Source: Bacteroidota bacterium
GTDB taxonomy: Bacteria; Bacteroidota; Bacteroidia; Bacteroidales; FEN-979
Assembly (NCBI GenBank): GCA_026391835.1
Contig: JAPLDF010000041.1
Location: 62,001-126,000 of the forward strand
Length of the DNA: 64,000 bases
Direction: 5' to 3'
Shown: piece by piece, positions 28,982 to 50,993 of the stretch
Position numbering within the stretch: position 1 is the first letter of the stretch
Layout of the letters: each line of letters starts with the position of its first letter
Program-made: the position numbers and the translations under genes
Notes under the pieces: model-generated
The model's database searches: none
What the model was told of the DNA's origin: nothing
Seen by the model: the letters and a program-made list of their open reading frames with translations, nothing else

Positions 28982-29242
28982 GAAATATTAATATGTGTCT
29001 GAAAAATCTTCCGCCAATGATCCTCCGGGATGTACGTTTATATTTGCAAAAACGCATGTCCGATATCGGAAACAGGCATATACAGATAATCCTATATATT
29101 CTTTTTTAGTATTTTACACATTTTTGCCTTATGTAAATGATCAGGTAACAGGACAATATATAAAAATAATATTTCCTTTACTTTCATCGGTTTTTATTAA
29201 ATTTAATGCCCAATACACGCATGGTCCTATACCTTTCTGCCA

Positions 29243-32173
29243 ATGAAAACTCTCATGATGTGCATGTTGCTGGCCATCGGGATGGCCTTCGCCCAGAACC
29301 AAAGAAAAACCGACAGTCTTGAAAAGCAACTGACCTGCAGGATCCCTGACACTACAAGGTGCCGCATCATGAGTATCCTGTGCGAGGAGTATATGCGGAT
29401 CGACAAGAAAAAAGCGCGCTATTACAATAACCAGTCAATGCTATTGTCTGTTTCCTGTGGGTATAAAAGAGGTATTGCATCCGGATTTTATGATAAGGCC
29501 ATCCTGATGAAATATATGGGCAGGAACGACAGTGCAATTAAGTTGCTGAAAACCTCGGGCACATTGTATCTTCAGTTGCCGGATACCCTGAACTACCTTA
29601 ATTGCCGCGCCGAAACCGGCGCAGTCTGCCTGGCCGGCCAGGATTACCAGCAGGCCATGGAATGTTTTCTTGAAGCCGAAAAAGGGTATGCACGGATCAA
29701 ATCACGCCAGAACCTTGCAAGAATTTACAGCCAGCTGGGCAGTTTGTATAAAGCTCAAAAACTGACGGATGAGGCATTGAAATATCATCAGAGATCTCTC
29801 ATGATCAATAAGGAGCTCAACTTTAAACTGGGCATTTCGGTCAACCTGAACAATATCGGGAATATTTTTGATGAGAGGAAAAACTATGACAGCGCCCGAT
29901 ATTATTACCACAAAGCCCTGGAAATAAAAGAATTGCTCAAGGACAACCTTGGAATTGCCAGGACCCTCAACAACCTCGGGATGGTTTTCCTGAACATGGG
30001 GGATGTGAAAAATGCGCTGCAGTATCACCTCAAAGCGCTTGTAATCAACCAGGAGGCGAACAATAAAAAGGACCTGGCCATCAACTATGCCAACCTGGGG
30101 TATGATTACCTGAAGGCCAATGAATTTCCCAGGGCGGCATACAATGCATCCCAGAGTCTGAAACTGGCGACCGACATCCATGATCTTACCTTGTTGAGTG
30201 AATCATATAAGATACTGAACGAAGCCGCAGCAGGGACTGGTGAATATAAAAAGGCGCTCAGGTATTACCAGTTGCACAAGCAGTATTATGACAGTGTTAT
30301 AAATGAAAAGAACCGGAATGCGATTGCAGAAATCAGGGCCAGGTATGATGTGGTCAAAAACGAAACAATGATCGCTGAACTGAACTCCTTAAAAAAGGAC
30401 CAGGAACTCAGGATGGAAACCATCAAAGCGAACAGGAACCTATATCTGAGCCTGCTTATTGGAGTCATGTTCATTTTGCTGGCATTTTATATGTGGATCC
30501 GCAGCAGGAAAAAGATTGAGCTGCACCTGCAGGAAGTAAACCATGTGAAATCGAAGTTTTTTGCAAACCTTTCACACGAGTTCCGCACGCCCCTGTCATT
30601 GATGCTGGGCCCGGTTGAAAAACTGCTCGAAAATGCAGATGCTGAAGAGCGCGTGTTGCTGGAAATTATCAGGCGGAATGCAAAGCGGGTGCTTACACTC
30701 GACGAACAACTGCTCGAACTTACCCGCCTTGAAACCGGCAACCATAAACTAAAACTCACCCAAGGGGAGATTTCGCTCGTCATAAAAGGTATTGCAGGGT
30801 CTTTCCAGTCGCTGGCAGAACGAAAAAGCATCAACTATACCTGCGAAATTCTGCTGAATGACACCACCGCAATATTTGATGCCGATATTCTTGAAAAGGT
30901 GATCAATAACCTTCTTTCGAATGCGTTCAAATATACACCAGGGGGTGGAAACATCTCTGTCAGTGCAACGTTTGTCAATTCCAGCGATGTCTCCGGGATG
31001 AAAGTTTTCCAAAAGAAAATTCGCAGCCGGTATATCCGGATCGATATTCAGGACAGCGGCATTGGCATCCCGGAGAAGTACCATGATAAAATATTTGACC
31101 GGTTTTTCCAGATATCAGACGGTAAGGAATATGGCCGTGAAGGCACAGGCATCGGCCTTGCGCTCACAAAGGAACTTGTCGAACTCAGTCACGGAGTGAT
31201 AACATTGAACAGCCGGGAGGGGCAGGGAAGCCTGTTCACCGTATTTCTCCCGGTTGAAAAGGAAGTATTTTCCCCGAACGACACAGCAGAGATCACTGCT
31301 TACAAAGAAACGCCCGCAATGGCACTTCAACCGACAGTTTATCAAGGCCATTCGCCTGTTAAACCGCCGCATGATCCCATTGAAAAAACGGGGGAACAAA
31401 CAGTTGCGCAGGTCCTTGTCGTTGAAGATAATCCGGATATGCGCAGGTATCTGAGGGTGCTGTTATCAGGTATTTATAGCGTGGCTGAAGCCGCAGAAGG
31501 AGCTGAAGGGTTCAGAATGGCCTGTGAAAACCATCCCGACCTGATCATCACAGACCTGATGATGCCTGGCATTGACGGAATGGAGTTTTGTGCAAAAATC
31601 AAGGGCGAAGTATGCACAAGTCATATCCCGCTGATCATGCTTACTGCGCTGGCATCCACCGAAGATAAAATTACGGGGCTTGAGACAGGTGCGGATGATT
31701 ATATCGGCAAGCCGTTCAGTAATTCAGAATTGCTGGCCAGGATCAGGAACCTGATATCCCAGCGTGAACATTTGCGCAATTTGTTCTGCACCGAGATGAG
31801 GCTTCAGCCGGGCGATGTAACCGTAACACCTGTAGATGAGCGATTTTTGCAACGGCTTATCAAATCGATCGAGGATCATATCGAGAACCCTGAAATCGAT
31901 ATCGATTTTCTTACAAAGAGCGCCAGCATGAGCCGGTCGCGACTTCATATGAAACTGAAAGCACTCACAGGCATGTCGGCAACCGGATTTGTCAAAATAA
32001 TCCGGCTTAAGCGGGCAGTCAACCTCATGGATCAGCATTACGGCAACGTTTCCGAAATTGCTTATGCCGTAGGGTTTACCAATCTGTCATACTTTACAAA
32101 ATGTTTCCGGGAGGTTTATGGTGAGTTGCCATCCGATTATTTAAAAAAACGGATGATCGGTTGCAGCACGTAA
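29243..32173 (+). CDS. Hybrid two-component sensor/AraC regulator with TPR sensor
   Basis: 976 residues. Order: signal peptide (MKTLMMCMLLAIGMAFAQ), tetratricopeptide repeats over about 60-340 with typical A-x-x-Y-H-x-A-L spacing, a coiled segment, a membrane helix at about 398-416, HisKA with phospho-acceptor His445 in NLSHEFRTPLS, ATPase domain with DSGIGIP and GTGIGLALTKEL, a receiver domain with Asp771 in LIITDLMMPG, and a C-terminal AraC-type helix-turn-helix (about 870-970). This is the hybrid two-component layout common in Bacteroidota, but with TPRs instead of the usual beta-propeller sensor. It would bind DNA while membrane-anchored. The S74 repeat proteins downstream are candidate targets. 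Confidence 0.93.
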   Translation: MKTLMMCMLLAIGMAFAQNQRKTDSLEKQLTCRIPDTTRCRIMSILCEEYMRIDKKKARYYNNQSMLLSVSCGYKRGIASGFYDKAILMKYMGRNDSAIKLLKTSGTLYLQLPDTLNYLNCRAETGAVCLAGQDYQQAMECFLEAEKGYARIKSRQNLARIYSQLGSLYKAQKLTDEALKYHQRSLMINKELNFKLGISVNLNNIGNIFDERKNYDSARYYYHKALEIKELLKDNLGIARTLNNLGMVFLNMGDVKNALQYHLKALVINQEANNKKDLAINYANLGYDYLKANEFPRAAYNASQSLKLATDIHDLTLLSESYKILNEAAAGTGEYKKALRYYQLHKQYYDSVINEKNRNAIAEIRARYDVVKNETMIAELNSLKKDQELRMETIKANRNLYLSLLIGVMFILLAFYMWIRSRKKIELHLQEVNHVKSKFFANLSHEFRTPLSLMLGPVEKLLENADAEERVLLEIIRRNAKRVLTLDEQLLELTRLETGNHKLKLTQGEISLVIKGIAGSFQSLAERKSINYTCEILLNDTTAIFDADILEKVINNLLSNAFKYTPGGGNISVSATFVNSSDVSGMKVFQKKIRSRYIRIDIQDSGIGIPEKYHDKIFDRFFQISDGKEYGREGTGIGLALTKELVELSHGVITLNSREGQGSLFTVFLPVEKEVFSPNDTAEITAYKETPAMALQPTVYQGHSPVKPPHDPIEKTGEQTVAQVLVVEDNPDMRRYLRVLLSGIYSVAEAAEGAEGFRMACENHPDLIITDLMMPGIDGMEFCAKIKGEVCTSHIPLIMLTALASTEDKITGLETGADDYIGKPFSNSELLARIRNLISQREHLRNLFCTEMRLQPGDVTVTPVDERFLQRLIKSIEDHIENPEIDIDFLTKSASMSRSRLHMKLKALTGMSATGFVKIIRLKRAVNLMDQHYGNVSEIAYAVGFTNLSYFTKCFREVYGELPSDYLKKRMIGCST

Positions 32174-32331
32174 ACCGTGAATCATTTAATTCCATCCTGT
32201 TCGCCTGTTTCAGGTTATATGCTGACTCCCTGCTTCCCTCCCATTCATTGACAGTGTAGTATCATTAATTCAAAAAGACATTTGTGTTAAAAGTTAGCAC
32301 ATGCTTGTTAACACATGCGCTGCGATTGATA

Positions 32332-32339
32332 TAATTTTG
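32332..32339 (+). promoter_or_regulatory. Possible -7 box for the first S74 repeat protein
   Basis: TAATTTTG fits TAnnTTTG and lies about 90 bases before the start codon. A direct repeat of CACATGC (32298-32304 and 32312-32318) lies just upstream and could be a regulator site. The -33 box is not clear. Confidence 0.35.
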
Positions 32340-32428
32340 GCACTTGTGTTCATGTCAGGTATTACATGATTTTTATTTTCGCATCATACCATTACAAATA
32401 TAAATCAGCCACCTTAATTTACGACAAA

Positions 32429-34825
32429 ATGAAAACCATGAAAAAAGTTTACATGTTCATCATTCTGATGATTGCAGTGATTTCGCCGGCACTATCACAG
32501 GTAGCGGTCAACACAGATGCATCACTGCCCGATGCCAGCGCAATGCTGGATGTTCAAAGCACCTCAAGGGGATTTCTTGTTCCCCGTATGACTGACACGC
32601 AACGGATCGGGATATCCAGTCCTGCCATCGGACTGATGGTTTACCAACTCAACGGAATCACGGGGTACTATTATTACAACGGCACCGCATGGTTACTGCT
32701 CAATGCAGGAGCATTGCCGGCAGGTACCGGCGGGCAGACCCTCAGGCATGACGGCACCGGGTGGATTGCCAACAGCCTCCTGTTCAACAATGGCACCAGT
32801 GTCGGGATTGGCACAACCGCTCCGGCTTTCAAACTCGAGGTTACCGGCGCAGATGCAAGCTTCAACGGGATCCGTGTAGGACGGGGAGGCGGCAACGGTG
32901 GGTCAAATACCGCTGTCGGCTTTGAAGCCATGAATCTCAGCACAAATACAGGTGATTATAACTGCGCCAACGGATACCGGGTGCTTAAAAATATCAGCTC
33001 GGGTGATAACAATACCGGGCTGGGCTACGCAGCGCTGATGAGCCTGACTAAAGGAACAGGTAATACAGCCATCGGATTTAAAACGTTATACAATGATACC
33101 AATGGGAATCACAATACAGCCCTTGGGTATGCATCATTATACTTTAACCGCTCCGGTGATTTTAATACCGCCGGCGGCTTGCGGGCACTGTATAACAATA
33201 CCGAAGGATATTCCAATGTTGCCCTGGGTGCGCATGCTTTGTATTTAAGCACCGACCGGAGTAACCTTGTCGCCATTGGCGATTCCGCGCTTTATAACAA
33301 CGGGTTTGGCGCCACCGGGAGTACCTATGGGTCAGCCAATACAGCAATTGGTTCTAAAAGTTTGTATACCAACACAACAGGGTATCAAAATACGGCGACC
33401 GGTTACCAGGCCTTATATTCAAACACGACCGGAAGGCATAACAATGCGTCTGGATATCAGGCACTTTATACCAATTCAACCGGGTTTGACAACACGGCAT
33501 ACGGCTACACGGCACTGTATTCAGGCAATGGTTTAAATAACACGGCTGTTGGAAGCGCAGCGTTAAATAACAATACCGGCAGCAACAATACCGGAATCGG
33601 GTACTATGTTCTGGGCGACAACCTGGAAGGTTCTTACAATACAGGCAGTGGCAATGAAGCGCTCAGCAACAATACGACCGGTTCTTATAACACGGCAAGT
33701 GGTTACAGGTCACTTCAGTTCAACACCACCGGTTCCAACAATACAGCATATGGCAGTGGCGCTCTTTACAACAATAAAGCAAACAGCCGTGCAACCGCGA
33801 TCGGATACCATGCATTGTATTATGCCAATTCCACAACCACCGGCATTGAGACAAAAAACACAGCTGTAGGATATGAAGCATTAAGGGGCAGTGCCACTCC
33901 TTCAAATAACACGGGCTCTGAAAATACTGCAATCGGTGATATTGCGCTGTTTTCAAATACATCCGGAGATGACAATTCAGCCATGGGATACGATGCTCTC
34001 TACAGCAATACCACAGGATCGAATAATCTTGCCAGCGGGGCATATGCAGCATCGCACAATACAACTGGTCATGACAATACGGCTGTCGGATATCACGCTA
34101 TGAGAGTTAATTCAACAGGCAGTAATAATACGGCCATCGGTTCCGGGGCCCTGGTTGATGGGGTTTTGACTGGCACCAACTCCAGTTACAATACCGCCGT
34201 TGGCTTTTCTGCTGGTTATTATTCCGATTTCAACAATCTTGTAGGTCCAGGGTGTACCATGGTGGGGAGTTATGCAACTACCAATGGCGACAGCTCTACA
34301 TTTATCGGGTATGATGCAGGACCCAAGCCACTAACCTCCGGAACATGTGCTGAAACCAACAACTCTGTTGGCATTGGGAACAACACCAAGGTTAGCGGGA
34401 ACAACCAGGTAAGATTGGGCAATTCAGCCATTCAGACATTTTATTGCCAGGGCGCCTATGTGGGAACGGTGGGTACTACCAACCGTGACCTTTATGCTGA
34501 CAATACCGGGAAAATCGGCTACCTGGCCTCATCTGCAAGGTACAAGGATAATATTCGTGACCTGGACAACCTGCACTGGCTCTATGATCTCAGGCCAGTC
34601 ACGTTTACCTACAAATCCGATCAACGCAATGTCAGGCAATATGGGTTGATCGCGGAAGAGGTGGAAAAAGTCAACCCCGATTTTGTGAGCTACAACGAAG
34701 AAGGAATCCCTGAGACAGTTTCATATTCGGCACTGTTAGCACCCTTGTTAAAGGCAGTCCAGGAGCAAAAGGCACTGATTGAAAAGCTTCAGAAAGAGAT
34801 TGATCAGCTGAAATCTAAAAAGTAG
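32429..34825 (+). CDS. Repeat protein with C-terminal S74 chaperone domain, copy 1
   Basis: About 798 residues from ATG 32429; ATG 32438 gives the same N-terminus as the paralogue at 36388 and may be the true start. Parts: signal peptide (MIAVISPALSQ end), a conserved stretch with LDVQSTSRGFLVPRMT, then about 480 residues of a 17-residue repeat with consensus N-T-A-x-G-Y-x-A-L, which should form a trimeric beta-helix like YadA heads or tail fibres. The C-terminus is a peptidase S74 intramolecular chaperone (SARYKDNIRDLDN, GLIAEEVEKVNPDF) ending in a coiled coil. In known proteins S74 helps trimer folding and then cuts itself off. A surface fibre or adhesin is likely (inference). Confidence 0.85.
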   Translation: MKTMKKVYMFIILMIAVISPALSQVAVNTDASLPDASAMLDVQSTSRGFLVPRMTDTQRIGISSPAIGLMVYQLNGITGYYYYNGTAWLLLNAGALPAGTGGQTLRHDGTGWIANSLLFNNGTSVGIGTTAPAFKLEVTGADASFNGIRVGRGGGNGGSNTAVGFEAMNLSTNTGDYNCANGYRVLKNISSGDNNTGLGYAALMSLTKGTGNTAIGFKTLYNDTNGNHNTALGYASLYFNRSGDFNTAGGLRALYNNTEGYSNVALGAHALYLSTDRSNLVAIGDSALYNNGFGATGSTYGSANTAIGSKSLYTNTTGYQNTATGYQALYSNTTGRHNNASGYQALYTNSTGFDNTAYGYTALYSGNGLNNTAVGSAALNNNTGSNNTGIGYYVLGDNLEGSYNTGSGNEALSNNTTGSYNTASGYRSLQFNTTGSNNTAYGSGALYNNKANSRATAIGYHALYYANSTTTGIETKNTAVGYEALRGSATPSNNTGSENTAIGDIALFSNTSGDDNSAMGYDALYSNTTGSNNLASGAYAASHNTTGHDNTAVGYHAMRVNSTGSNNTAIGSGALVDGVLTGTNSSYNTAVGFSAGYYSDFNNLVGPGCTMVGSYATTNGDSSTFIGYDAGPKPLTSGTCAETNNSVGIGNNTKVSGNNQVRLGNSAIQTFYCQGAYVGTVGTTNRDLYADNTGKIGYLASSARYKDNIRDLDNLHWLYDLRPVTFTYKSDQRNVRQYGLIAEEVEKVNPDFVSYNEEGIPETVSYSALLAPLLKAVQEQKALIEKLQKEIDQLKSKK

Positions 34826-34867
34826 GGTTTGTCCTAAAATTAACTCACAATACAAAAATCGTGATTT

Positions 34868-36328
34868 ATGAAAACGAAACTTATTTACTTCACCTGTTCC
34901 ATTGTGCTGATTTTTCTCATTGGGGTACAGGTATGCGCCCAGACAACCATCACTGGGGGGTCCTGGCTGGTAATCGCTGACGGCGGCAAACTGGTTTCAA
35001 CTAAGAATGTTGTTGTGCAGAACGGAGGCGGAATTTATGGCAATGGCAACAGTTCCCTCATCCTGAAGAAGGACCTGATCAACCAGAATATTGGCAGTAT
35101 CAACTGGATTTCTGTCAATAACGTGGAATTTTCGGGGAGTGAGAATCAGCACATCACCGGAAGAAGCAGTTTTTTTAATGTTGCCGTAAACAATCCTGCC
35201 GGACTGACCCTTGACGGGAATACCTATGTCGAAAATGGGCTGGTCCTGTCCCTTGGCCATTTGATGCTTGAAAACAATGACTTAACCCTGGGACATAATG
35301 GCGTGTTTGGCGGGACACCATCCGTGTCGGCCATGGTTGTTCCGACCGGTACCGGACATCTTTTTAAAAATGTCATGGAGGGTTATTCAACGACCTTTAC
35401 CTTCCCGGTTGGCAGCAACACCGGAACCGCGTCATATTCCCCGGCAACACTGAATTTCACAAGCTTTCCTTTGACATATGCCATCAAACAGGTCGGAATC
35501 AACCTTGCAAATGTAAAATATCCCGACCCGGCGATAACCGGAAATTATCTAAACCGCTACTGGAGCCTGGCAGAATCCGGTTTTACAAGTTTTACCTGTA
35601 ACGCAACCTTTCAGTATGTGCCCGCCGATGTGACAGGAAGCGAAACTGTGTTATCCTGCACCCGCGTGAACCCGTTGCCATGGATTACCTACGGCCTGAC
35701 TGATGCAACAACCCACATGCTTGTGGCTACAGGCATCACATCCTTTGGTTCATACACCGGGTTAAAAAGCACAACAACTCCTGCCAACCAGGAATTAGTC
35801 AATATTAACATTCCCGATGGTGTCTCCAGTTGTTATGATGCTACGCAAACAATAACAGTTGCCGGGAATGGTAAAACATTTATGGTAAACTATGGAGGCA
35901 GCGCCATTCTGGTTGCAGGACAGAAAATTTCCATGCTGCCCGGCACACAGGTTTCGCCTGGCGGTTACCTGCATGGCTATATTGCAGACAATGGCAACTA
36001 TTGTGTCAGTCAGCCTCCTGCTTTGATGAACAGCGTAGCAATGGGAATGGATGCAGTGAGTGTTTTCCGTGGAACAACCGGCGAACACCAGGTCAGGGTA
36101 TACCCGAACCCTGCTTCAGGGATGTTCACCGTTGAAGTTAACGGGAATGACAACACTGGTTTAACTGCGATAGAGATATACAGTATGACCGGTATCAGGC
36201 TGACAAGGGAAAATCTCCATGGAGAACAGAGTCATCTGAGCTCAGTGACCGGTTTCATGCCAGGCCTCTATTTCATCAGGGTTTACACAGAAAACCAGGT
36301 TACAACGGTGAAATTAATTAAAAATTAA
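34868..36328 (+). CDS. Secreted T9SS cargo protein
   Basis: 486 residues. An N-terminal signal peptide (MKTKLIYFTCSIVLIFLIG...CAQ) is followed by beta-rich sequence without a recognised enzyme domain (VVVQNGGGIYGNGNSSLIL and similar). Near residues 315-380 is a module with SSCYDATQTITVAGNG, GGSAILVAGQKISMLPG and GGYLHGYI, shared with the two giant proteins at 40592 and 45827. The last 80 residues (VRVYPNPASGMFTVEV to TTVKLIKN) form a T9SS type A sorting domain, so the protein is exported and held at or released from the cell surface. It sits between the two S74 paralogues, 42 bases after one and 59 before the other. Confidence 0.88.
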   Translation: MKTKLIYFTCSIVLIFLIGVQVCAQTTITGGSWLVIADGGKLVSTKNVVVQNGGGIYGNGNSSLILKKDLINQNIGSINWISVNNVEFSGSENQHITGRSSFFNVAVNNPAGLTLDGNTYVENGLVLSLGHLMLENNDLTLGHNGVFGGTPSVSAMVVPTGTGHLFKNVMEGYSTTFTFPVGSNTGTASYSPATLNFTSFPLTYAIKQVGINLANVKYPDPAITGNYLNRYWSLAESGFTSFTCNATFQYVPADVTGSETVLSCTRVNPLPWITYGLTDATTHMLVATGITSFGSYTGLKSTTTPANQELVNINIPDGVSSCYDATQTITVAGNGKTFMVNYGGSAILVAGQKISMLPGTQVSPGGYLHGYIADNGNYCVSQPPALMNSVAMGMDAVSVFRGTTGEHQVRVYPNPASGMFTVEVNGNDNTGLTAIEIYSMTGIRLTRENLHGEQSHLSSVTGFMPGLYFIRVYTENQVTTVKLIKN

Positions 36329-36387
36329 GTGGCGAACCATCCAATATTAACTCAATCAAACAAATCAACTCTAAAAAGAAGAAGATC

Positions 36388-38577
36388 ATGAAAAAAGTTT
36401 ACTTGTTCATCATTCTGATGATTGCGGTGATTTCGCCGGCACTTTCACAGGTAGCGGTCAACACAGATGCATCACTGCCCGATGCCAGCGCAATGCTGGA
36501 TGTTCAAAGCACCTCCAGGGGATTTCTTGTTCCACGTATGACCGATACGCAACGGACCGGCATAGCCAGCCCTGCCATTGGACTGATGGTTTACCAAACC
36601 AACGGAACCCAGGGGTATTATTATTACAATGGCACAGCATGGTTACTGCTCAATGCAGGAGCGTTGCCGGCGGGTACCGGCGGGCAGACACTTCGGCATG
36701 ACGGCGCCGGCTGGATTGCCAGCAGCTTCCTGTTTAACAATGGCACCAGTGTCGGGATTGGCACAACTGCTCCTGCCTTCAGACTTGAAGTGTACGGCCA
36801 GGATGCCGGCATGAACGGTCTCCGGGTCGGCAGGGGGGCTGGCAACAGGGTTACCAATACAGCCATTGGCTATCAATCACTGAACGCCAACACGACGGGA
36901 GATTACAATTGCGCAAACGGGTATGCGGTACTGACCGATAACACAACTGGTGATTACAATACCGGGCAGGGGTATGCAGCCCTGACAAACCTTACCAAAG
37001 GAACAGGAAATACCGCCACCGGCTTTAAATCACTTTTTAATGATACCACAGGTGGCTATAACACAGCCATTGGCTATGCTGCACTTTACATAAACCGTTC
37101 GGGAAGTTACAATACGGCCGGCGGGCTGCGTACACTGTACAACAATTTAACCGGGTACTCGAATGTAGCTTTGGGAGCAAGCGCCCTTTTCAACAATACC
37201 GATCTAAGCAACCTGGTGGCTATCGGGGATTCAGCCTTGTATAACAATGGGGTAGGTGCATCCGGAAACCAGGGGAAAGCGAATGTGGCAGTTGGCTCAA
37301 AAACTCTGTATACCAACACGACCGGATATTTTAATACGGCAACAGGCCACCAGGCTCTTTTTTCAAATTTATCAGGTTGTTACAATACCGCGGCAGGATT
37401 TAATGCACTTTATTCCAACGAAAGCGGGTCAAACAACACAGCTTTTGGCTATAAGTCGCTGATTTTAAATACCGGGTCATATAATACTGGTATAGGTTCC
37501 TATGCAATGCAGTCCAATGAAGCCGGCGAGTACAACACTGCAACCGGGTACCTGTCTCTTACCTCAAATACTACCGGGAATAATAATACTGCGGATGGTT
37601 ACCGGGCGCTTAACTCGAACACTACCGGGTCGGAGAATACTGCATGCGGCACCAGGGCGCTTTATAGCAACAAGGCGAACAGCCGAAGCACAGCGATCGG
37701 CTACCAGGCCATGTCCAATGCCAATTCTACAACGAGCGGAATCGATACTTACAACACTGCGGTGGGATATGAAGCATTAAAGGGAGGGGCAACACCTTTA
37801 ACCAACACAGGTGGCTATAATACAGCTGTTGGCGACCAGGCCCTTTATTCCAACACCACCGGCCTGGTTAATACTGCCGTGGGAAGAATGGCGCTGTACA
37901 GCAATACATCAGGGTCACACAACATTGCAGTCGGAAATGGCGCACTGCAGTTAAATACCGGGGGAATTGGCAACGTTTGTGTCGGTTTTTCGGCCTATTA
38001 TCAAAATCATACCGGGAACTACAATACAGCAATCGGCAATTCGGCCAACGGAAGTGGTATGGACAAAGACAATACCACGGCTATTGGTCATGGCAGCTAT
38101 GTTTCGGCAGATAACCAGGTGCGCATCGGGAACTACGATATCACAAGCATTGGCGGCTATGCCGGGTGGACGGATATTTCTGACAAACGAGTCAAGAAAG
38201 ATGTGAATGAAAGTGTACCGGGAATCGCATTCATCATGAAGTTGCGCCCGGTGACTTACCACCTCGATATGGAAGCCATTGCCAGGTTCCAGCATACCCC
38301 CGACAATTTAAGATCAAAAAAATCCGAAGCCATAAAAGGAGGAATGTTGCAAACCGGGTTTATCGCCCAGGAGGTTGAAAAAGCGGCAAATGACCTTGGG
38401 TACGATTTCAGTGGCGTGGATAAACCAAAAAACGAAAACGATTTTTACGGTCTGCGGTATGGTGAGTTTTCAGTACCCCTTGTAAAAGCAGTACAGGAGC
38501 AGCAGGCAACTATTGAACAATTGGGCAGGATGATAGAACAACTTCAGAAGGAGATAGAGTTGCTTAAATCAAGGTAG
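36388..38577 (+). CDS. Repeat protein with C-terminal S74 chaperone domain, copy 2
   Basis: 729 residues. The N-terminal 140 or so codons are almost identical to copy 1 at the nucleotide level, including the signal peptide and LDVQSTSRGFLVPRMT. The middle again consists of 17-residue N-T-A-x-G-Y-x-A-L repeats, but fewer and in a different order. The S74 tail differs strongly: DISDKRVKKDVNESVPG, then LRPVTYHLDMEAIARF and GFIAQEVEKAANDLGY, with an insertion absent from copy 1. It therefore looks like a modular paralogue with a shared start and a swapped tail. It should likewise form a trimeric surface fibre. Confidence 0.85.
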   Translation: MKKVYLFIILMIAVISPALSQVAVNTDASLPDASAMLDVQSTSRGFLVPRMTDTQRTGIASPAIGLMVYQTNGTQGYYYYNGTAWLLLNAGALPAGTGGQTLRHDGAGWIASSFLFNNGTSVGIGTTAPAFRLEVYGQDAGMNGLRVGRGAGNRVTNTAIGYQSLNANTTGDYNCANGYAVLTDNTTGDYNTGQGYAALTNLTKGTGNTATGFKSLFNDTTGGYNTAIGYAALYINRSGSYNTAGGLRTLYNNLTGYSNVALGASALFNNTDLSNLVAIGDSALYNNGVGASGNQGKANVAVGSKTLYTNTTGYFNTATGHQALFSNLSGCYNTAAGFNALYSNESGSNNTAFGYKSLILNTGSYNTGIGSYAMQSNEAGEYNTATGYLSLTSNTTGNNNTADGYRALNSNTTGSENTACGTRALYSNKANSRSTAIGYQAMSNANSTTSGIDTYNTAVGYEALKGGATPLTNTGGYNTAVGDQALYSNTTGLVNTAVGRMALYSNTSGSHNIAVGNGALQLNTGGIGNVCVGFSAYYQNHTGNYNTAIGNSANGSGMDKDNTTAIGHGSYVSADNQVRIGNYDITSIGGYAGWTDISDKRVKKDVNESVPGIAFIMKLRPVTYHLDMEAIARFQHTPDNLRSKKSEAIKGGMLQTGFIAQEVEKAANDLGYDFSGVDKPKNENDFYGLRYGEFSVPLVKAVQEQQATIEQLGRMIEQLQKEIELLKSR

Positions 38578-38606
38578 TTCGCATTAACATCCGGGAACTT
38601 GTTACT

Positions 38607-38632
38607 GGGGGCCATATTGTATCATGGCCCCC
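38607..38632 (+). terminator. Hairpin after S74 copy 2
   Basis: A 9-bp perfect stem (GGGGGCCAT at 38607-38615 and its complement at 38624-38632) with an 8-base loop follows the stop codon by 29 bases. The following TTACTGTGTTGT is only weakly T-rich, so termination may be partial. Confidence 0.55.
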
Positions 38633-38693
38633 TTACTGTGTTGTGCAATTTCATTACCTTTGTAAAAGACAGTTTTCTGATAAATCGTTCGCT

Positions 38694-39495: not shown

Positions 39496-40332
39496 CTAAC
39501 GGGCACTTTTCATTACAACGATCTCCCTTATTTCACTTCCTTGCTGGGTGAAGACCAGGCGTCGCTTGTCAAAATAATATTCATAGGTGTTGCCACTGAG
39601 GAAAACTCCGATCTGAACGCCCTTTTCCATTCCGGGGCAGGCCATCTTCGTGCCGGACAATGGTGAGAAGGTAATGGTCGTGTTCGTTGCGGTAAAGGTA
39701 CCGCCTATGTTGTTGCAGCCATCGTGACCTGTAATCTTTTGCTGTTTAACCAGAATTTCGAGGTTTGGCAGGCCTTTGGCATAATCTCCGGGGATTAAAG
39801 GTGTTCCGTTTACCTTCTCCACAACCCATGTGTTTTGGAGCCTTGTGTCGGCATTTGCACCCATACTGAGTGAATCTATTGTTGAAGCAGCACTTTCAGA
39901 AGCACCCGCTTCCATGTTTACCCGCAGGAGGATATACTTGCCAGCCAGTGCACCCTTTATTTTTTTCCCTTGCGCATCAAGCATCAGCAGCCCATTGGGC
40001 TGCCGGATAAAGTACCTGAAACCCTGCGCATTTTTATCAAGGGCAATGACTCCGTCTTTTCTAATTGTAAATTTCCCCTCAGCCTTAACCGGGGTTTCCG
40101 ACTTCCCTGCATAGACCATGCTTGCGAAGTAGGTTGAATCCGTGTTGAGCCTGAGTTTATAGCTGATTTTTTCGCAGTCGGCGCATGGAATATTCCCCAT
40201 ATACGCACCAGTCACATCTTTATCTTCGATGCCCCGGGATTGCCCGCCAGCGGTAGTTGTTGTTTTTGTCGATGAGCATCCTGCTCCCAAAACAAGCAAG
40301 GTTGCAAGAATTAATATAAAGAATTTGTTCAT
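39496..40332 (-). CDS. NlpE-META domain lipoprotein
   Basis: 278 residues. The lipobox LVLGAGC at residues 13-19 marks a lipoprotein anchored by Cys19. Residues about 42-130 match the NlpE N-terminal domain, including GNIPCADCEKI with its CxxC. Residues about 165-275 form a META (HslJ-like) domain with LQNTWVVEKVNG, ITGHDGCNNIGG and MACPG. NlpE is linked to envelope stress sensing in E. coli and META domains to heat-shock/novobiocin resistance proteins. This fusion is common in Bacteroidota; its role is not established. It converges on the flavin-binding protein with a 3-base gap. Confidence 0.87.
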   Translation of the reverse strand: MNKFFILILATLLVLGAGCSSTKTTTTAGGQSRGIEDKDVTGAYMGNIPCADCEKISYKLRLNTDSTYFASMVYAGKSETPVKAEGKFTIRKDGVIALDKNAQGFRYFIRQPNGLLMLDAQGKKIKGALAGKYILLRVNMEAGASESAASTIDSLSMGANADTRLQNTWVVEKVNGTPLIPGDYAKGLPNLEILVKQQKITGHDGCNNIGGTFTATNTTITFSPLSGTKMACPGMEKGVQIGVFLSGNTYEYYFDKRRLVFTQQGSEIREIVVMKSAR

Positions 40333-40591: not shown

Positions 40592-43500
40592 TTACAATTT
40601 AACCAGCTTCATTGTCTCCACATACCCGTCGGCCACAACTTTTACGAAGTACATTCCGGCAGCCATGTCAGGGAACCTGAAATCATGCGATTTCTCCCCG
40701 ATCATGTTTCCCGTCATTACTTTTTCACCGCGGATGCTGAACACTTCAATTTTTACATTGTTGTATTGAGCACCGGTTTTCTGCACCAGAGTGAAATTCC
40801 CGGTTGTGGGATTCGGGTAAATATTGAAATTGACCTGTTGGGAGCCTGGCACGCTCTCCTGCGATCCGCCTGCACCGTCAACCATTGGAGCATCCTTGGC
40901 ACCGCAGTAGGATCCGGTTGAAATGTAACCGTGCATATAACCACCTGCCTCCACACGCGTCCCCAGCAGATAGAGGATATTCTGCCCGGCCACCATGGTT
41001 GCACTGCCGCCATTCAGGACTACAAAAGTATCGTCCCCTCCGGCAACCGTGACTGTATTGGTAGCATTGTAACAGGTATCGGTTATGCCGGAAACCGTTC
41101 CGGCAACAGTTGTGTTTTCAGGAATGGAGCCAGGCGTTGTAAAAGTCATATCGTTTCCATAGATAATGCTGTTGGCAAAAGTTACTGCCCTCAGGCGGAA
41201 GTGATATGGAGTATTTCCTGAAAGTCCGGTTAAGGAGGCAGTTATCGGCTGGGGAGTACCTCCCGTTAAGGTAGAGGGTGTTCCTGAAACGGTATTGCCG
41301 TATGCTGCAGAAGTTCCATAGTCAAAATAGAGACTTAAGTTCTCGCCGGCAGGGGTTGCAATACCATTGAGCGTTGCTGCAGTTGCCGAAACACCGGTGG
41401 CAGGATTGGTAACAAGCGACGGACCCGGGGTGAATTCATAAGCTCCCATGTCGGGAGGATCGGTTCTCAGCACACCGGCAATATCCGATGGTAAAGAAGG
41501 AAGGTAGTACCCGGCTTTGGGAAAGGATCCAGATGTTGGAAGCAAATACGTTGGGGATGTGAAAGCCGGGTCAAAACCTGTGGAATGAATATCCTGCCCG
41601 GTGGCTGCCTTCCAATCAGGAAGTGAAAGAAAAGTGGAACCGTTCATCACCCCGATGTGGTGGGCGCACCCATCAACATAATAATCGTTGTAGTCGATAA
41701 TTGAAAAATTTGCCGCATTGCTTGCAGTCGTTGCAATCGCATAGGTTTTACCGTCTAAAGGACATGTTCCGGTTAATCCCATCATGGAATTTTTCAGGAT
41801 GTTGTTCCTTATCTCGATGTTATTTGAACGGACTCCGTCCTGATATATCCCGATGCATGAAGACGAAGCATCACGTACATCGGTCGGAGAGAGCACGTTT
41901 CCATACAGATATATAGAATTATGTATAATCTTGATGTTTCCGCCGCTGTAAATGTAAATACCGTAAGGATTATTCGGTGACACCCCGGGTGCGGCACCCG
42001 ATGATTTGATGCCATAAATTGCGTTGTCGGAAATTTCCGTTTCAGTATTGCCCTCCGCCTGGTACCAGATCCCATAAGCCCCGGACCCGTCGTCAACATT
42101 CCTGTAGAAATCATGGATCAAATTCTTTCGGATCTTGGTAAAAGTTGTATAACCAAGGATATATACCCCTCCATGGAGCGGCACACCGTTCCCGAATTCT
42201 GATCCCATGATGTTGTTTCCCGAAATCAGGGTATTATCGCAGTATTGCAGCAGAATTCCCTTGGCAACGATATAGTCTGAAGGATTTGACGAACCGATCA
42301 CATTTCCCGTGATCTGCCCGTTCGTGGTGATCCAGCTAAAGTTACCTGTGAACTGGATCCCGGTGTTGGCAGCACAGATAGAGTCATCCATGATGACAAT
42401 ATCGTCGTACCCCCCGCTCACCGAACTTAGCAGAATGCCATAGTTCGTAACCGTTGTTGAGCTTACGCCCTTGATGACTGAATTCCTGATGATATTGTGT
42501 GAAGCAGGATCGGTTCCACCTTTATTGAACATACCGATCACATAGGCACCTGTGGTTTCACTGGTATTTTTAAAAGTCAGGCTTTTATCGGAACCACCAT
42601 TGACAGAACCATCGATGATGAGGTAATCGAAGCCATTTACCTTTATCAGTCCACTGGATACACTGGCGTCTGCCAGCACAGGGTGCACACCGGTATTGGG
42701 TTTTATGGTGAGGGTATTGGTACTGCTGCTTCCGCCATTAGGCTCCAGTATGATCGGGAAGGTTTCGGCCGGATAGGCATTGTCGGTAAGCACGAGGGTG
42801 ACCGGGCAGGTAATGCCTTTTGAATTGATATCGCTGATGGCGGCAGTAAGCGTCGGATAAGCCCCTCCTGATCCTACATTGAACGTTCCGCATATCGATG
42901 AAACAATCACATAACTGGCAGGTGCGGATGGATAGGTTGCGACTGCCGGAGGGTTGGCTGTAAACCCGGCAGCACCGGCAAAGGGAAATGAGTTGACATT
43001 TGGGGAGGCCCACAAATCCTGTGCTAAAATGAAGTAATACACTGAATCTCCCAATGCCGTTCCGGCACCGAAGCTAAAGGAATACTGGTTGCTGCCCAGT
43101 GATGTACCGGTAACGTATGTCCAGGTACCGCCAAAATTTTTCTTCCAGCAAACACGGGGCAACCCAGTTCCCGTAACGGGCACACCATGGATGTCGGTGA
43201 TGGTTGCAACCAGTGTGCGGTCGCCGGTGGTAGCGACATTGGCAAGCGGGGAATAGGTAATAAGGGGCGGGGTAAGGTCGGCAGGGATCCCTCCGAATTC
43301 ATCTGCACCAATATCCGGGGCATTTGCCGGAAAGGTAGGATGAACAGGATATCCCGGGTTCGGATAACGGGGATTATCGTCGAAATCTGTCGTTATTTTC
43401 ATCGGAACTGCCACGATACTTCCTCCGCTTTCACATTGGGATGGAACCGCATTGCTGACATGAAGGTCGCAGGGGGTCGTTGTTGAAATAAAAGGGGTAT

Positions 43501-45520
43501 TTTCTGTGACCGAAAGGTATTCGCGCGGGCTCATCCGGATTTTATATTGCAGCAGGGTTGAATCACTGTTGGTTCCATCGCTGAATATCAGCCTTTGTGA
43601 GGAGGGAGTTCCCGCATAGTAATTGTTGTTATTTGAGGTTGTGGAAAGGTTTCCGAAATTCAGGGAATCTGTCAGTACGGCTATGGTCTTTCCGGTCCCG
43701 TTCGGCGTTGATGTATTGATGATGATGTTGTTCCGTGTATCCAGCACCTGGATGTATTTTGTGACCATAAGCCCGGTTGTACCAAAATTGGCCCCTATTG
43801 AAGTCGAATTCAGGTAGACCGTGTTGTTGTATAGTCCTGTTGAGATGGAATTGAACCCGAACAGGTATATTCCCTTGATGGCAGATACAGATGACGTTGT
43901 ACCGGCCTTGAGGTCGCCGACAATGTTGTTATAGATATAGATGCTTCCGGCCCCGGTTAGGTTGCCAAGATATATCCCTGTTATAAGGCTGGCAGTACCC
44001 GGCCCGCTGATGTTCTGGACCCTGTTGTTGTAGATATTCCAGTTATAGCCGGCATCAATGTTGATCCCGTAAGTTGTTCCTTTTGCTTCTGAAAGATTGG
44101 TGAAAGAGTTGTTATAAAAGTTTTTGGTGATTGGCCGGTTGACGTTGCAATATATTCCATACACCGTCCCGGTAGTTGTCGAGGTATTGTTGTCGCAAAT
44201 ATTTCCGTAACAGTTCAACGTGTAACACTGAATACCAAGCTGCATATAGGTTGTTGTTCCTCCCACACCTGAAGGGGATTGGATCCTGGTATTGTTACTG
44301 ACTGTATTGTTATAAACATCAGAAGTTCCCAATACTGTTGGCAGGGCACTGGTAACGATATAAGTCACCGCCCCCTGGGAGGTGGTTGTGGAAGAGCCAT
44401 ACTGATTCCCTGTAACCAAGTTGTTATAGATGCTGACACTTGGGCCGCCATGGGAAATGTTCAGATAATTACAATTGCTGGAGGTAGCGGTTGGATAAGT
44501 GCAGTTGGTTATAACATTATCATGAATACTTATGATATTTGTTGTCGAGGTCGTACCCATGGTTTCCCAGATACCATAAAACACCCCTGTACCGTTGTAT
44601 TGAACACTCACAGTATCGCCGTAAACATAGACACTGGCATTGCTGGTACTTTGGAATTGCATCCCGTAACAAGCACTTCCACCGGGCACCGACCCGCTGA
44701 TCTTGTTTTTGGCAACCGTCAGGTTATTCTGGTACTGGCAATAGAATCCACTTGGAGATCCTGTGGTAGTCCCGAAATTCGATATCTTGTTTCCTGCCAC
44801 AGACCCGAAATCGTTGTATTGGTCATAGTTTGTATATGGGGCAACAGAAGCAACTCCCATCGCATAGATCCCGTTGAAACAATTTGTTATCACATTTCCC
44901 TGGAATGAGTTGTAGGAGTTGGCCTGGAGCACATTTTTGATACCCCTGTTAGTCCCGGGAGTGTCACTTCTCCATGATCGGAGATTGATCCCAACAGTAC
45001 CGGTATTGGTACGATTCAACGAAATACTGCAGTTTTTAATGGTTGCATGCTGCGTCCCACTGGTATCAGCGACAGCTTTCATCAGCAGATAACCGCTCTC
45101 GGTTTGTGTCGTTGCAGTTACATGTGCAGCATTATCAATCACATCAATCCCGTCGAAGGTCACATAGTCGGTACCGGCTATGGCAAATACATAATCAGCG
45201 GTGCCTGTCCCGTTGGCGGAGGTAATTAACGGATTGGACCCGGTGCCATCCTTTTGAAAAATAATCGGACTTGATGCCAGGCTGTTGGCGCATGTTATCA
45301 ATCCGGCTGAGGCACTTGAAAACGTCTCGGTATACCCTGCAGCCACTTTAAAGGTAACCCCGGGGGCTGCAACGCCCTGGCTGTTCAACGCAGCTATGGC
45401 GGCAGTGATCGTCGGGTAATTGGGCGAGCCGTCAGGAATATAATAGGTTCCGGATAACTGCCCAAAAGACAATTGACAGAACGTTATTCCCAGGAACAAC
45501 GTAATAATGATTTTTTTCAT
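40592..45520 (-). CDS. Giant secreted T9SS beta-helix protein 1
   Basis: 1642 residues. Signal peptide MKKIIITLFLGITFCQLSFGQ; then a first beta-helix-like region with many N-x-I/V-x-N-N repeats (roughly 60-700), a middle fibronectin/Ig-like region (about 760-870), a second beta-helix region (about 890-1330) and a fibronectin III-like segment (NGIATPAGENLSLYFDYG) near 1400. A Cys-Tyr...GGYMHGYI module precedes a T9SS type A sorting domain (FNIYPNPTTGNF to METMKLVKL). It is expected to be displayed or released at the cell surface; beta-helix proteins often bind or cleave polysaccharide, but no catalytic motif is evident. It is a paralogue of the next gene. Confidence 0.88.
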   Translation of the reverse strand: MKKIIITLFLGITFCQLSFGQLSGTYYIPDGSPNYPTITAAIAALNSQGVAAPGVTFKVAAGYTETFSSASAGLITCANSLASSPIIFQKDGTGSNPLITSANGTGTADYVFAIAGTDYVTFDGIDVIDNAAHVTATTQTESGYLLMKAVADTSGTQHATIKNCSISLNRTNTGTVGINLRSWRSDTPGTNRGIKNVLQANSYNSFQGNVITNCFNGIYAMGVASVAPYTNYDQYNDFGSVAGNKISNFGTTTGSPSGFYCQYQNNLTVAKNKISGSVPGGSACYGMQFQSTSNASVYVYGDTVSVQYNGTGVFYGIWETMGTTSTTNIISIHDNVITNCTYPTATSSNCNYLNISHGGPSVSIYNNLVTGNQYGSSTTTSQGAVTYIVTSALPTVLGTSDVYNNTVSNNTRIQSPSGVGGTTTYMQLGIQCYTLNCYGNICDNNTSTTTGTVYGIYCNVNRPITKNFYNNSFTNLSEAKGTTYGINIDAGYNWNIYNNRVQNISGPGTASLITGIYLGNLTGAGSIYIYNNIVGDLKAGTTSSVSAIKGIYLFGFNSISTGLYNNTVYLNSTSIGANFGTTGLMVTKYIQVLDTRNNIIINTSTPNGTGKTIAVLTDSLNFGNLSTTSNNNNYYAGTPSSQRLIFSDGTNSDSTLLQYKIRMSPREYLSVTENTPFISTTTPCDLHVSNAVPSQCESGGSIVAVPMKITTDFDDNPRYPNPGYPVHPTFPANAPDIGADEFGGIPADLTPPLITYSPLANVATTGDRTLVATITDIHGVPVTGTGLPRVCWKKNFGGTWTYVTGTSLGSNQYSFSFGAGTALGDSVYYFILAQDLWASPNVNSFPFAGAAGFTANPPAVATYPSAPASYVIVSSICGTFNVGSGGAYPTLTAAISDINSKGITCPVTLVLTDNAYPAETFPIILEPNGGSSSTNTLTIKPNTGVHPVLADASVSSGLIKVNGFDYLIIDGSVNGGSDKSLTFKNTSETTGAYVIGMFNKGGTDPASHNIIRNSVIKGVSSTTVTNYGILLSSVSGGYDDIVIMDDSICAANTGIQFTGNFSWITTNGQITGNVIGSSNPSDYIVAKGILLQYCDNTLISGNNIMGSEFGNGVPLHGGVYILGYTTFTKIRKNLIHDFYRNVDDGSGAYGIWYQAEGNTETEISDNAIYGIKSSGAAPGVSPNNPYGIYIYSGGNIKIIHNSIYLYGNVLSPTDVRDASSSCIGIYQDGVRSNNIEIRNNILKNSMMGLTGTCPLDGKTYAIATTASNAANFSIIDYNDYYVDGCAHHIGVMNGSTFLSLPDWKAATGQDIHSTGFDPAFTSPTYLLPTSGSFPKAGYYLPSLPSDIAGVLRTDPPDMGAYEFTPGPSLVTNPATGVSATAATLNGIATPAGENLSLYFDYGTSAAYGNTVSGTPSTLTGGTPQPITASLTGLSGNTPYHFRLRAVTFANSIIYGNDMTFTTPGSIPENTTVAGTVSGITDTCYNATNTVTVAGGDDTFVVLNGGSATMVAGQNILYLLGTRVEAGGYMHGYISTGSYCGAKDAPMVDGAGGSQESVPGSQQVNFNIYPNPTTGNFTLVQKTGAQYNNVKIEVFSIRGEKVMTGNMIGEKSHDFRFPDMAAGMYFVKVVADGYVETMKLVKL

Positions 45521-45608
45521 GTTTTTAGGTTTTTAGTTAATACTCTTTTTATCCCTGCATATTGACTGTAAAAATACCCACTCCATATAAAGCATATCGT
45601 TAAACACC

Positions 45609-45649
45609 TATTACATAAACTGTACAGCCTTATTACAAAACCTGTACAA
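45609..45649 (-). promoter_or_regulatory. 22-bp-phased direct repeats upstream of giant T9SS gene 1
   Basis: Two copies of TATTACA-N5-TGTACAG (plus-strand reading; the second ends in A) start at 45609 and 45631, exactly 22 bases apart, 88 bases before the start codon of the gene at 45520. The same pattern lies upstream of the second giant gene. Direct repeats two helical turns apart are typical of sites for tandem-binding regulators such as LytTR proteins. The remainder of 45521-45700 contains no gene. Confidence 0.6.
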
Positions 45650-45700
45650 GCAGGTAACCGAAAAACAACACATCTGACTTTAAGGCACTTACACTTTTAC

Positions 45701-45729
45701 AAAAAAACCGCCCCGGTTTCCCGGGACGG
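45701..45729 (-). terminator. Intrinsic terminator of the second giant T9SS gene
   Basis: Same hairpin as at 40444-40472: a 9-bp stem around a GAAA loop and seven T on the minus strand, about 100 bases after the stop at 45827. The sequence from here to the gene end is nearly the same as at the first copy. Confidence 0.9.
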
Positions 45730-45786
45730 CCTAACCAAACACAACATCATTTTCTTTTTCCCTCAGTTCCCAGGGTAGATCCTTCT

Positions 45787-45810
45787 CCCCTTCTCCTTGA
45801 GGAGAAGGGG
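45787..45810. repeat. CCCCTTCTCC hairpin repeat, copy 2
   Basis: A perfect 10-bp stem with loop TTGA, followed by GGGGGATGAGG. Counterpart of 40529-40552, in the same place relative to its gene. Confidence 0.75.
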
Positions 45811-45826
45811 TCAGGGGGATGAGGTA

Positions 45827-50785: not shown

Positions 50786-50801
50786 CGTTTTGGTTTTTTG
50801 G

Positions 50802-50993
50802 TTAAGACTCTTTTTCCTGTTCATTCTTATTTTCAGCACCCGGATTACCGGTATCGCCCTGGTGATCATCAGGAATACCGGTGATTCCCTGGAGTTTCTT
50901 TAGCAGTTCGTTCTCCGCCTTCTTTCTCCTGATCAGTTCTGAGAGATCATCCAGCCAGGAAGCGGGTTTTTCATTTTCATTCAGTTCATCCAT
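50802..50993 (-). CDS. Small charged protein upstream of giant T9SS gene 2
   Basis: 63 residues, highly charged: MDELNENEKPASWLDDLSEL, then a helix-prone IRRKKAENELLKKLQG, then a Gly/Asp/Asn-rich tail. I do not recognise a family. Support for a real gene is contextual: a full TTTG-N20-TAGATTTG promoter lies 38-69 bases upstream, and the 22-bp-phased repeats sit just beyond that. The stop is 16 bases before the start of giant gene 2. It has no signal peptide, so it would stay in the cytoplasm. Alternatively the region is a leader for the giant gene. Confidence 0.5.
   Translation of the reverse strand: MDELNENEKPASWLDDLSELIRRKKAENELLKKLQGITGIPDDHQGDTGNPGAENKNEQEKES

Follow-up and report, generated by a model that had tools for sequence, protein, structure and literature searches.

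Two S74 fibre genes with a near-identical basal module on either side of a T9SS cargo gene in a Bacteroidota genome

Why should two neighbouring genes begin almost identically and end in unlike S74 tails, with the gene of a T9SS cargo protein between them? The question is raised by a stretch of 64,000 nucleotides from a Bacteroidota genome (the window, hereafter), on the plus strand of which three intact genes, named here A, B and C, follow one another with intergenic gaps of 42 bp (A–B) and 59 bp (B–C). A first-pass annotation made from the letters had described two S74 genes around a T9SS gene, and domain searches (Pfam, NCBIfam) bear this out, since A and C are intact and flank a type A cargo gene. 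The features of the locus, in window positions, are as follows.

32308..32335, plus strand: promoter-like site 5' of A, with 11 of 12 consensus matches (the scan gave 26 sites, against 17.8 in shuffles)
32438..34825, plus strand: gene A, S74 tailspike-like fibre (alternative start at 32429; the ORF finder starts upstream)
32438..32823, plus strand: shared 5' module of A (signal peptide, by eye, and N-module), 92% DNA identity with C
32801..32842, plus strand: VGIGTTAP..LEV motif of A, at the exchange boundary (by eye; it resembles the motif that aligns the sister protein L152 with the MAT protein bd2133)
32864..34507, plus strand: array of 17-residue (51-nt) repeats of A (limits approximate)
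34529..34687, plus strand: Peptidase_S74 domain of A, S-S-x-R-x-K motif (Pfam)
34868..36328, plus strand: gene B, T9SS type A cargo (Pfam, NCBIfam)
36098..36319, plus strand: Por_Secre_tail sorting domain of B (Pfam)
36388..38577, plus strand: gene C, S74 tailspike-like fibre (Pfam, PHROG)
36388..36773, plus strand: shared 5' module of C (alignment with A)
36751..36792, plus strand: VGIGTTAP..LEV motif of C, at the exchange boundary (by eye)
38179..38400, plus strand: Peptidase_S74 domain of C, S-D-x-R-x-K motif (Pfam)
38607..38632, plus strand: 9-bp hairpin 3' of C, possible terminator of a putative A-B-C transcript (by eye; without a T run and absent from the scanner's list)

The sorting domain of B scores well above the cut-offs of both models (TIGR04183: 50.5 bits for a cut-off of 23; PF18962: 45.9 bits for a cut-off of 27), and Peptidase_S74 (PF13884; curated cut-off 22 bits) is recognised in A (48.7 bits) as in C (33.9 bits). 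Both fibre genes match PHROG tail spike families (best E-values of 6e-65 for A and 1e-84 for C). In Pfam searches of A and C that allowed E-values up to 10, S74 was the only domain matched, with no C-terminal membrane anchor domain of the kind found in YadA-type trimeric autotransporters; C ends in S74 followed by a predicted long helix. No T9SS signal was matched in the two fibres, which both begin with a signal peptide recognised by eye and would thus be exported by the Sec pathway.

When A and C are aligned, their identity drops in a single sharp step. The change point is best placed at codon 129 (window position 32824 for A and 36774 for C), with DNA identities of 92.0% across the 128 codons 5' of this edge and 63.2% 3' of it (tails excluded), and its dlnL of 70.5 was reached by none of 2000 codon shuffles, the largest shuffle value being 12.0. 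The statement that the first 140 or so codons are almost the same at the DNA level therefore stands as regards the likeness, while the extent has to be corrected to 128 codons at 92%. Upstream, the similarity reaches the start codons or goes beyond them by no more than about a dozen bases, and the edge falls inside the VGIGTTAP..LEV motif (seen by eye in A and C), at the junction of the basal module and the repeat shaft. The step is just as visible at synonymous sites: among codons of identical residues, third positions are identical in 93 of 112 before the edge vs. 124 of 289 after it (p = 1.1e-13), and dS per 30 codons takes the values 0.10, 0.26, 0.29 and 0.39 over the first 120 codons, then ranges from 0.79 to saturated. 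In the shared module, dN is 0.01–0.08, as expected under purifying selection. A gradient of dS within the module was considered and dropped, for it corresponds to 2, 5, 5 and 7 synonymous changes per 30 codons, too few for such a claim; GC-biased conversion was likewise rejected, the GC3 of the N-module (0.555) being close to that of the rest (0.548) over 55 genes (p = 0.25).

Beyond the edge, the central repeats had been described as related but rearranged. Related they are, and their proximal half runs collinear, interrupted by gaps of one residue and a single gap of 15 residues; out of 29 windows of 34 residues along A, 17 match C best, without gaps, at the position expected from collinearity, eight of the 12 misses being distal, where A has 62 extra residues compared to C. 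When the parts of the two fibres are searched one by one against ORFs from the retrieved loci, a graded picture emerges. The basal modules share 92–93% of their amino acids, the next matches by score reaching 48–49% (up to 53% over shorter stretches); the proximal repeats are 64–68% identical and reciprocal best matches, with 53–56% for the next best; the distal repeats are 54–55% identical, and other genomes provide matches that are equal or better by score.

The S74 tails differ, as already stated in the first-pass annotation, and they belong to separate clades. The nearest relatives of the A tail are five genes of four congeners (56–63%), with which it forms a clade in the S74 tree (support 100/99), whereas the C tail has its nearest matches in a genome from a different family (70%) and in an Ignavibacteriae genome (71%). 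Forcing the two tails together costs 92 log units and is rejected by the AU test (p = 2.5e-61), in a tree of 38 of the 115 S74 rows, picked after viewing the larger tree so as to remove long branches; the S74 tree leaves aside sequences that are short, duplicated or contain unknown letters. Both tails keep a Ser-Lys pair five residues apart (S-S-A-R-Y-K in A, S-D-K-R-V-K in C), which is found in 110 of the 115 S74 domains examined, A and C included. According to the account given in PMC8326128, S74 domains are trimeric and cleave themselves at a Ser-Lys dyad (S587/K592 in MyRF, S911/K916 in endoNF), while the motif reported for the MAT superfamily of Bdellovibrio bacteriovorus is SDxxxK (PMC10769870), A having an S where this motif has a D. 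S74 domains are present in 37 of the 61 genomes searched (this genome counted), and in the present assembly (96.7% complete) they were found on A and C only. An adjacent S74 pair of another genome (L091, G045 C270) has N-modules with 84% DNA identity, alike tails and unlike sequences just past the module, a pattern that differs from that of A and C.

Whole-gene duplication with uniform divergence, the outcome that the first-pass annotation had set against exchange, is ruled out by the identity step, the partition of dS and the tail tree. With uniform divergence excluded and the tails not being sisters, exchange is supported: judging from the sequences, the 5' module has evidently been exchanged or homogenised by recombination, either because the 5' end was copied or because the 3' end was replaced, after the tails had parted, and since the modules are near-identical while the tails lie in different clades, the basal module was shared long after that parting. 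From the suggestion of a recent duplication or gene conversion with tail exchange, we thus retain the exchange and take the word recent in a relative sense only (dS 0.10–0.39). Regarding the end that moved, the closer likeness of the proximal repeats would favour a 5' end copied onto an old A/C pair. The rival course would be a recent tandem duplication of the whole fibre gene, after which the shaft and tail of one copy were replaced from another S74 gene, with B functionally unlinked to the fibres; in its favour, the 5' modules are clearly sisters when the tails are not, and the edge sits at a module boundary. Yet the proximal repeats, though far more diverged than the 5' modules, are reciprocal best matches, so that the shafts of A and C seem to have an older common history, which a wholesale 3' replacement would have erased, and no further S74 gene able to act as donor was found in this genome (assembly 96.7% complete); we consider this course possible, if unlikely. 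Strong selection alone, preserving the basal module of an old duplicate pair in the absence of any exchange, would agree with the purifying selection acting on the module, but the synonymous positions are partitioned as sharply as the amino acids and the other adjacent N-module pairs of the genome are far less alike, which leaves this explanation with hardly any credence. Exchange at the module edge, by a copied 5' end or a replaced 3' part, is the reading that we carry forward.

The N-module itself, about 125 residues in all (a signal peptide recognised by eye and about 100 further residues), recurs throughout this genome, at 71 matching places and in 57 genes with a near-complete module, to which the N-module pair counts were restricted (60 genes being reduced to 57). 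No model of Pfam or NCBIfam covers the N-module of A and C, and a comparison of 25 N-module stretches with Pfam gave weak matches in a few of them and one strong Collar match in one member. Among the other 55 N-module genes, the tips (last 300 residues or less, E-values up to 0.001) match FISUMP in 25 genes (NCBIfam), Lcl_C in 20 and Fib_succ_major in 18 (Pfam), three sets that may overlap and in which cut-offs were applied to part of the matches; at least 25 of the 55 thus carry C-type-lectin-like FISUMP/Lcl tips. In phages, the N-module was matched in three of 50,697 records, with a coverage of 38% at most. Adjacent N-modules of this genome resemble each other more than shuffled pairs do (28 pairs, equalled by none of 10,000 shuffles; the same result for the 27 pairs without A/C), and adjacent pairs with unrelated tails, taken from several genomes, have a median identity of 0.579 (13 pairs) vs. 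0.524 (706 pairs; p = 0.007), while the other adjacent pairs of this genome reach 0.79 or lower. A general rule of homogenisation between neighbours was nonetheless rejected, because tandem duplicates inflate the likeness and the pairs are non-independent. A diversity-generating retroelement was rejected as well: the two RVT_1 places of the genome are on contigs 1 and 32, and A and C on contig 5. A reverse transcriptase ORF lies directly downstream of an N-module/FISUMP-like gene at L165:1854-4620 (G000 C32); its product resembles a group II intron protein, which we presume it to be, and no pair of template-like and template-variable repeats was found at this locus.

Structure models, computed for single chains, are weak, with a mean pLDDT of 63 for the basal module and 69 for the C tail. 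In the latter, several 17-residue repeats form short paired strands, followed by S74 and by a long C-terminal helix, the best PDB neighbours being MyRF and phage intramolecular chaperones, at E-values of 0.12 or worse. The basal model is good for residues 46–90 only, and the Foldseek matches listed all have E > 1; VIA-align recovers N-terminal residues of phage Mtd (Z of 5.9 over 43 residues), tailspikes and the trimerisation domains of collagens XV/XVIII, where Z-values below 8 may reflect a common arrangement only. In sequence searches of the PDB, no chain was matched by A (E up to 0.1) or by C (E up to 1), and a likeness of the N-module to the lectin 1xi0 was abandoned, a weak sequence match (E = 0.0014) that vanished when a profile was used. 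Three sister proteins encoded beside B were compared with known fibres: two of them match the MAT fibre bd2133 (8ond; E = 2.5e-8 and 1.4e-9), the alignment of one (L152) running through the VGIGTTAP..LEV-type motif, and all three match the trimeric C-terminal domain of Lcl. These matches make MAT-like trimeric fibres with exchangeable tips the likeliest nature of the family.

Gene B, for its part, is a recurrent neighbour of N-module genes. There are 20 close relatives of B (E < 1e-90) when the query is counted, of which 17 have a co-oriented N-module gene within 144 bases (16 of 19 if the query is set aside). These numbers come from at most 30 B candidates scored per genome, the 20 being made up of 19 places with an E-value under 1e-90 and a further place in this genome, which passed in a second comparison, and the 17 to 16 from the near-complete-module count plus L102, whose partner gene is cut and was removed by this filter from one of the two neighbour counts. 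For the three others (L254, L258, L262), the examined stretch contains no N-module neighbour, two of the contigs being short or cut beside B. Within this genome, an N-module neighbour is found for all three B-type genes vs. two of the 147 remaining T9SS cargo genes (p = 1.8e-5; two of two without the query B, p = 5e-4), based on 150 scored sorting-domain places from 342 candidates. Partners of B with an S74 domain occur in the window (twice), L132, L129, L112 and L102, and also in L089, a locus of a congener with a more distant B relative and the order S74-B-S74-S74; ten other partners or cluster members divide into six with FISUMP or Lcl tips above the Pfam cut-off, one (L263) with FISUMP above the NCBIfam cut-off and three with neither. 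The first-pass idea that A, B and C act together in a single surface structure is thereby backed as far as gene order goes, the physical complex being putative.

The association has its limits. N-module pairs around B elsewhere share just 0.52–0.74 of their DNA positions, so the near-identity of A and C may be incidental to it, and B-type genes accompany three clusters only in this genome, which leaves most N-module proteins without a B neighbour. Moreover, the position next to B weakly follows the N-module tree (17 changes vs. 20.8 in shuffles, with three of 500 shuffles as low), and as it is just slightly clustered, the adjacency of B and N-module genes seems to have been gained or lost repeatedly. 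Several of the more distant B relatives are about 3 kb away from an N-module gene, and others have none in the examined stretch. In L267, L271 and L273–L278, such distant relatives are found downstream of an N-module gene (about 500 residues) at a distance of about 3 kb, an order conserved in several congeners. The two T9SS cargo genes that touch an N-module gene without being of B type are located at G000 C72:111522-114215 and C19:48388-49404.

The three genes are part of a larger block, delimited as follows.

28997..38645, no strand assigned: block with sensor, A, B and C (9.65 kb; edges by blastn of the flanks)
29243..32173, plus strand: TPR-histidine kinase-receiver-AraC hybrid sensor, within the block (Pfam)

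The block is located between thrA (aspartokinase-homoserine dehydrogenase) and a holin-like gene; these names, like PNPOx and META, rest on Pfam. A close relative of thrA (78–83%) is present in six of 18 congeners, and its distance to the holin-like gene is 87–147 bp in four of them (G017, G018, G002, G014) and 856 bp in G001, where an unrelated ORF intervenes, vs. 9.69 kb in the window. Hence, the block is absent at this site from all five readable congeners, the contig of the sixth ending there. The simpler reading of this distribution is that the block was inserted here rather than lost elsewhere; its G+C and GC3 do not stand out. The hybrid sensor may regulate A-B-C, which is a guess, given that similar sensors near other S74 genes are only 20–36% alike. 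Close to the block, the minus strand of the window carries a tandem pair of very large T9SS cargo genes (40592-50869), of which one is kept near the site in L217, L218 and L219, and none lies between the neighbour genes in L215 and L216. An NlpE/META-domain gene at 39496-40332 is matched in one of the 18 congeners searched (G017, partial).

A holin-family gene at the edge of the block, the strong PHROG tail spike matches of A and C, the 100 phage records similar to C and the occurrence of S74 in eCIS operons (mentioned in PMC8213781) all invite the view that the two fibre genes are left over from the tail of a phage or of a contractile injection system, with B as an unrelated neighbour. The congeners, however, keep the holin gene without the block, and a Pfam scan of 16 neighbouring genes of the window revealed no other phage or baseplate domain. 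Added to this, A and C have signal peptides (by eye), the N-module is matched in three phage records but in 57 genes here, and the association with B exceeds the background of the other cargo genes. Altogether, we deem a phage or contractile-injection origin of this kind quite improbable.

Our preferred explanation, to which we assign a probability of about 0.6, is that A and C are MAT-like fibres encoded by the cell, with a shared base, B being displayed along with them and representing the best docking candidate. Both fibres would be Sec-exported, trimeric, tailspike-like mosaics in which a basal N-module is followed by a 17-residue repeat shaft and a C-terminal S74 domain, and the latter, by analogy, would help the three chains to fold before cutting itself off. 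They would belong to a repertoire of 57 genes that combines one basal module with varied tips and probably works like the MAT set. Recombination at the module edge would have homogenised the basal modules or joined them to different 3' ends, and a common base would allow two fibres with different ends to use one socket. B, presumably expressed from the same putative operon, would be displayed with A and C at the cell surface and is a candidate docking element for the N-module, a plausible one insofar as type A cargo is described as being held at the surface via A-LPS (PMC9143113). A bolder version can be put forward tentatively at best: B would be a T9SS-exported, lipopolysaccharide-anchored receptor for a MAT-like basal domain, conversion would keep neighbouring plugs alike, so that fibres, perhaps including mixed A/C trimers, share an anchor, and cassettes of the type sensor-fibre-socket-fibre would move between genomes.

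Several known systems resemble parts of this arrangement. Phage tailspikes and fibres with an S74 chaperone share with A and C the S74 domain and its Ser-Lys pair at the end of a repeat shaft, along with the PHROG tail spike families; unlike them, A and C are cellular genes that begin with a signal peptide (by eye) and have a basal module that is itself cellular, and no virion genes were seen alongside. The collagen-like adhesin Lcl of Legionella is reported to be a trimeric surface adhesin (PMC11162425), and its C-terminal domain forms the tip of many sister proteins with an N-module, whereas A and C end in S74 and no collagen shaft was matched. In the SprB-SprF pair, as presented in PMC9143113, a type B T9SS cargo is anchored at the surface with a PorP-like barrel partner. 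Here too, a T9SS cargo would have a partner, as suggested by gene order, but B is a type A cargo and adjoins fibres without a matched T9SS signal.

The closest parallel is the MAT superfamily, whose members are all described as having a signal peptide and the same conserved basal domain (about 130 residues), then a long fibre and an S74 or other tip, including the C-type lectin fold, with many members per genome (PMC10769870). The genes with the N-module of A and C follow the same plan (signal peptide by eye, common base, fibre, S74 or lectin-like tips), a likeness that concerns the plan of the two bases, the one MAT chain encountered in the PDB searches (8ond) being a distal part. The differences lie in numbers (57 genes here vs. 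21 in Bdellovibrio), in the frequency of FISUMP/Lcl tips and in the T9SS cargo gene as a recurrent neighbour. Among the best-ranked matches of our literature searches, no paper dealt with such fibres in such bacteria, and the word stem "bacteroid" is absent from the main text of PMC10769870, the supplementary tables of which may list such fibres or name such genomes. The authors of the MAT paper propose that tips are swapped, and as far as the text of PMC10769870 goes, the surface element that holds the basal domain is left open. The present locus bears on both points, with a concrete case of exchange at a module edge, dated by synonymous sites, and with a candidate surface partner for the basal domain suggested by gene order; it would also suggest a role for many proteins that are named after their tips only (FISUMP, Lcl, tail fibre). 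As far as our searches reach, what is new compared to the MAT set is an even larger fibre repertoire on one base in a T9SS genome, an exchange whose position and timing are read from synonymous sites, and a T9SS partner gene.
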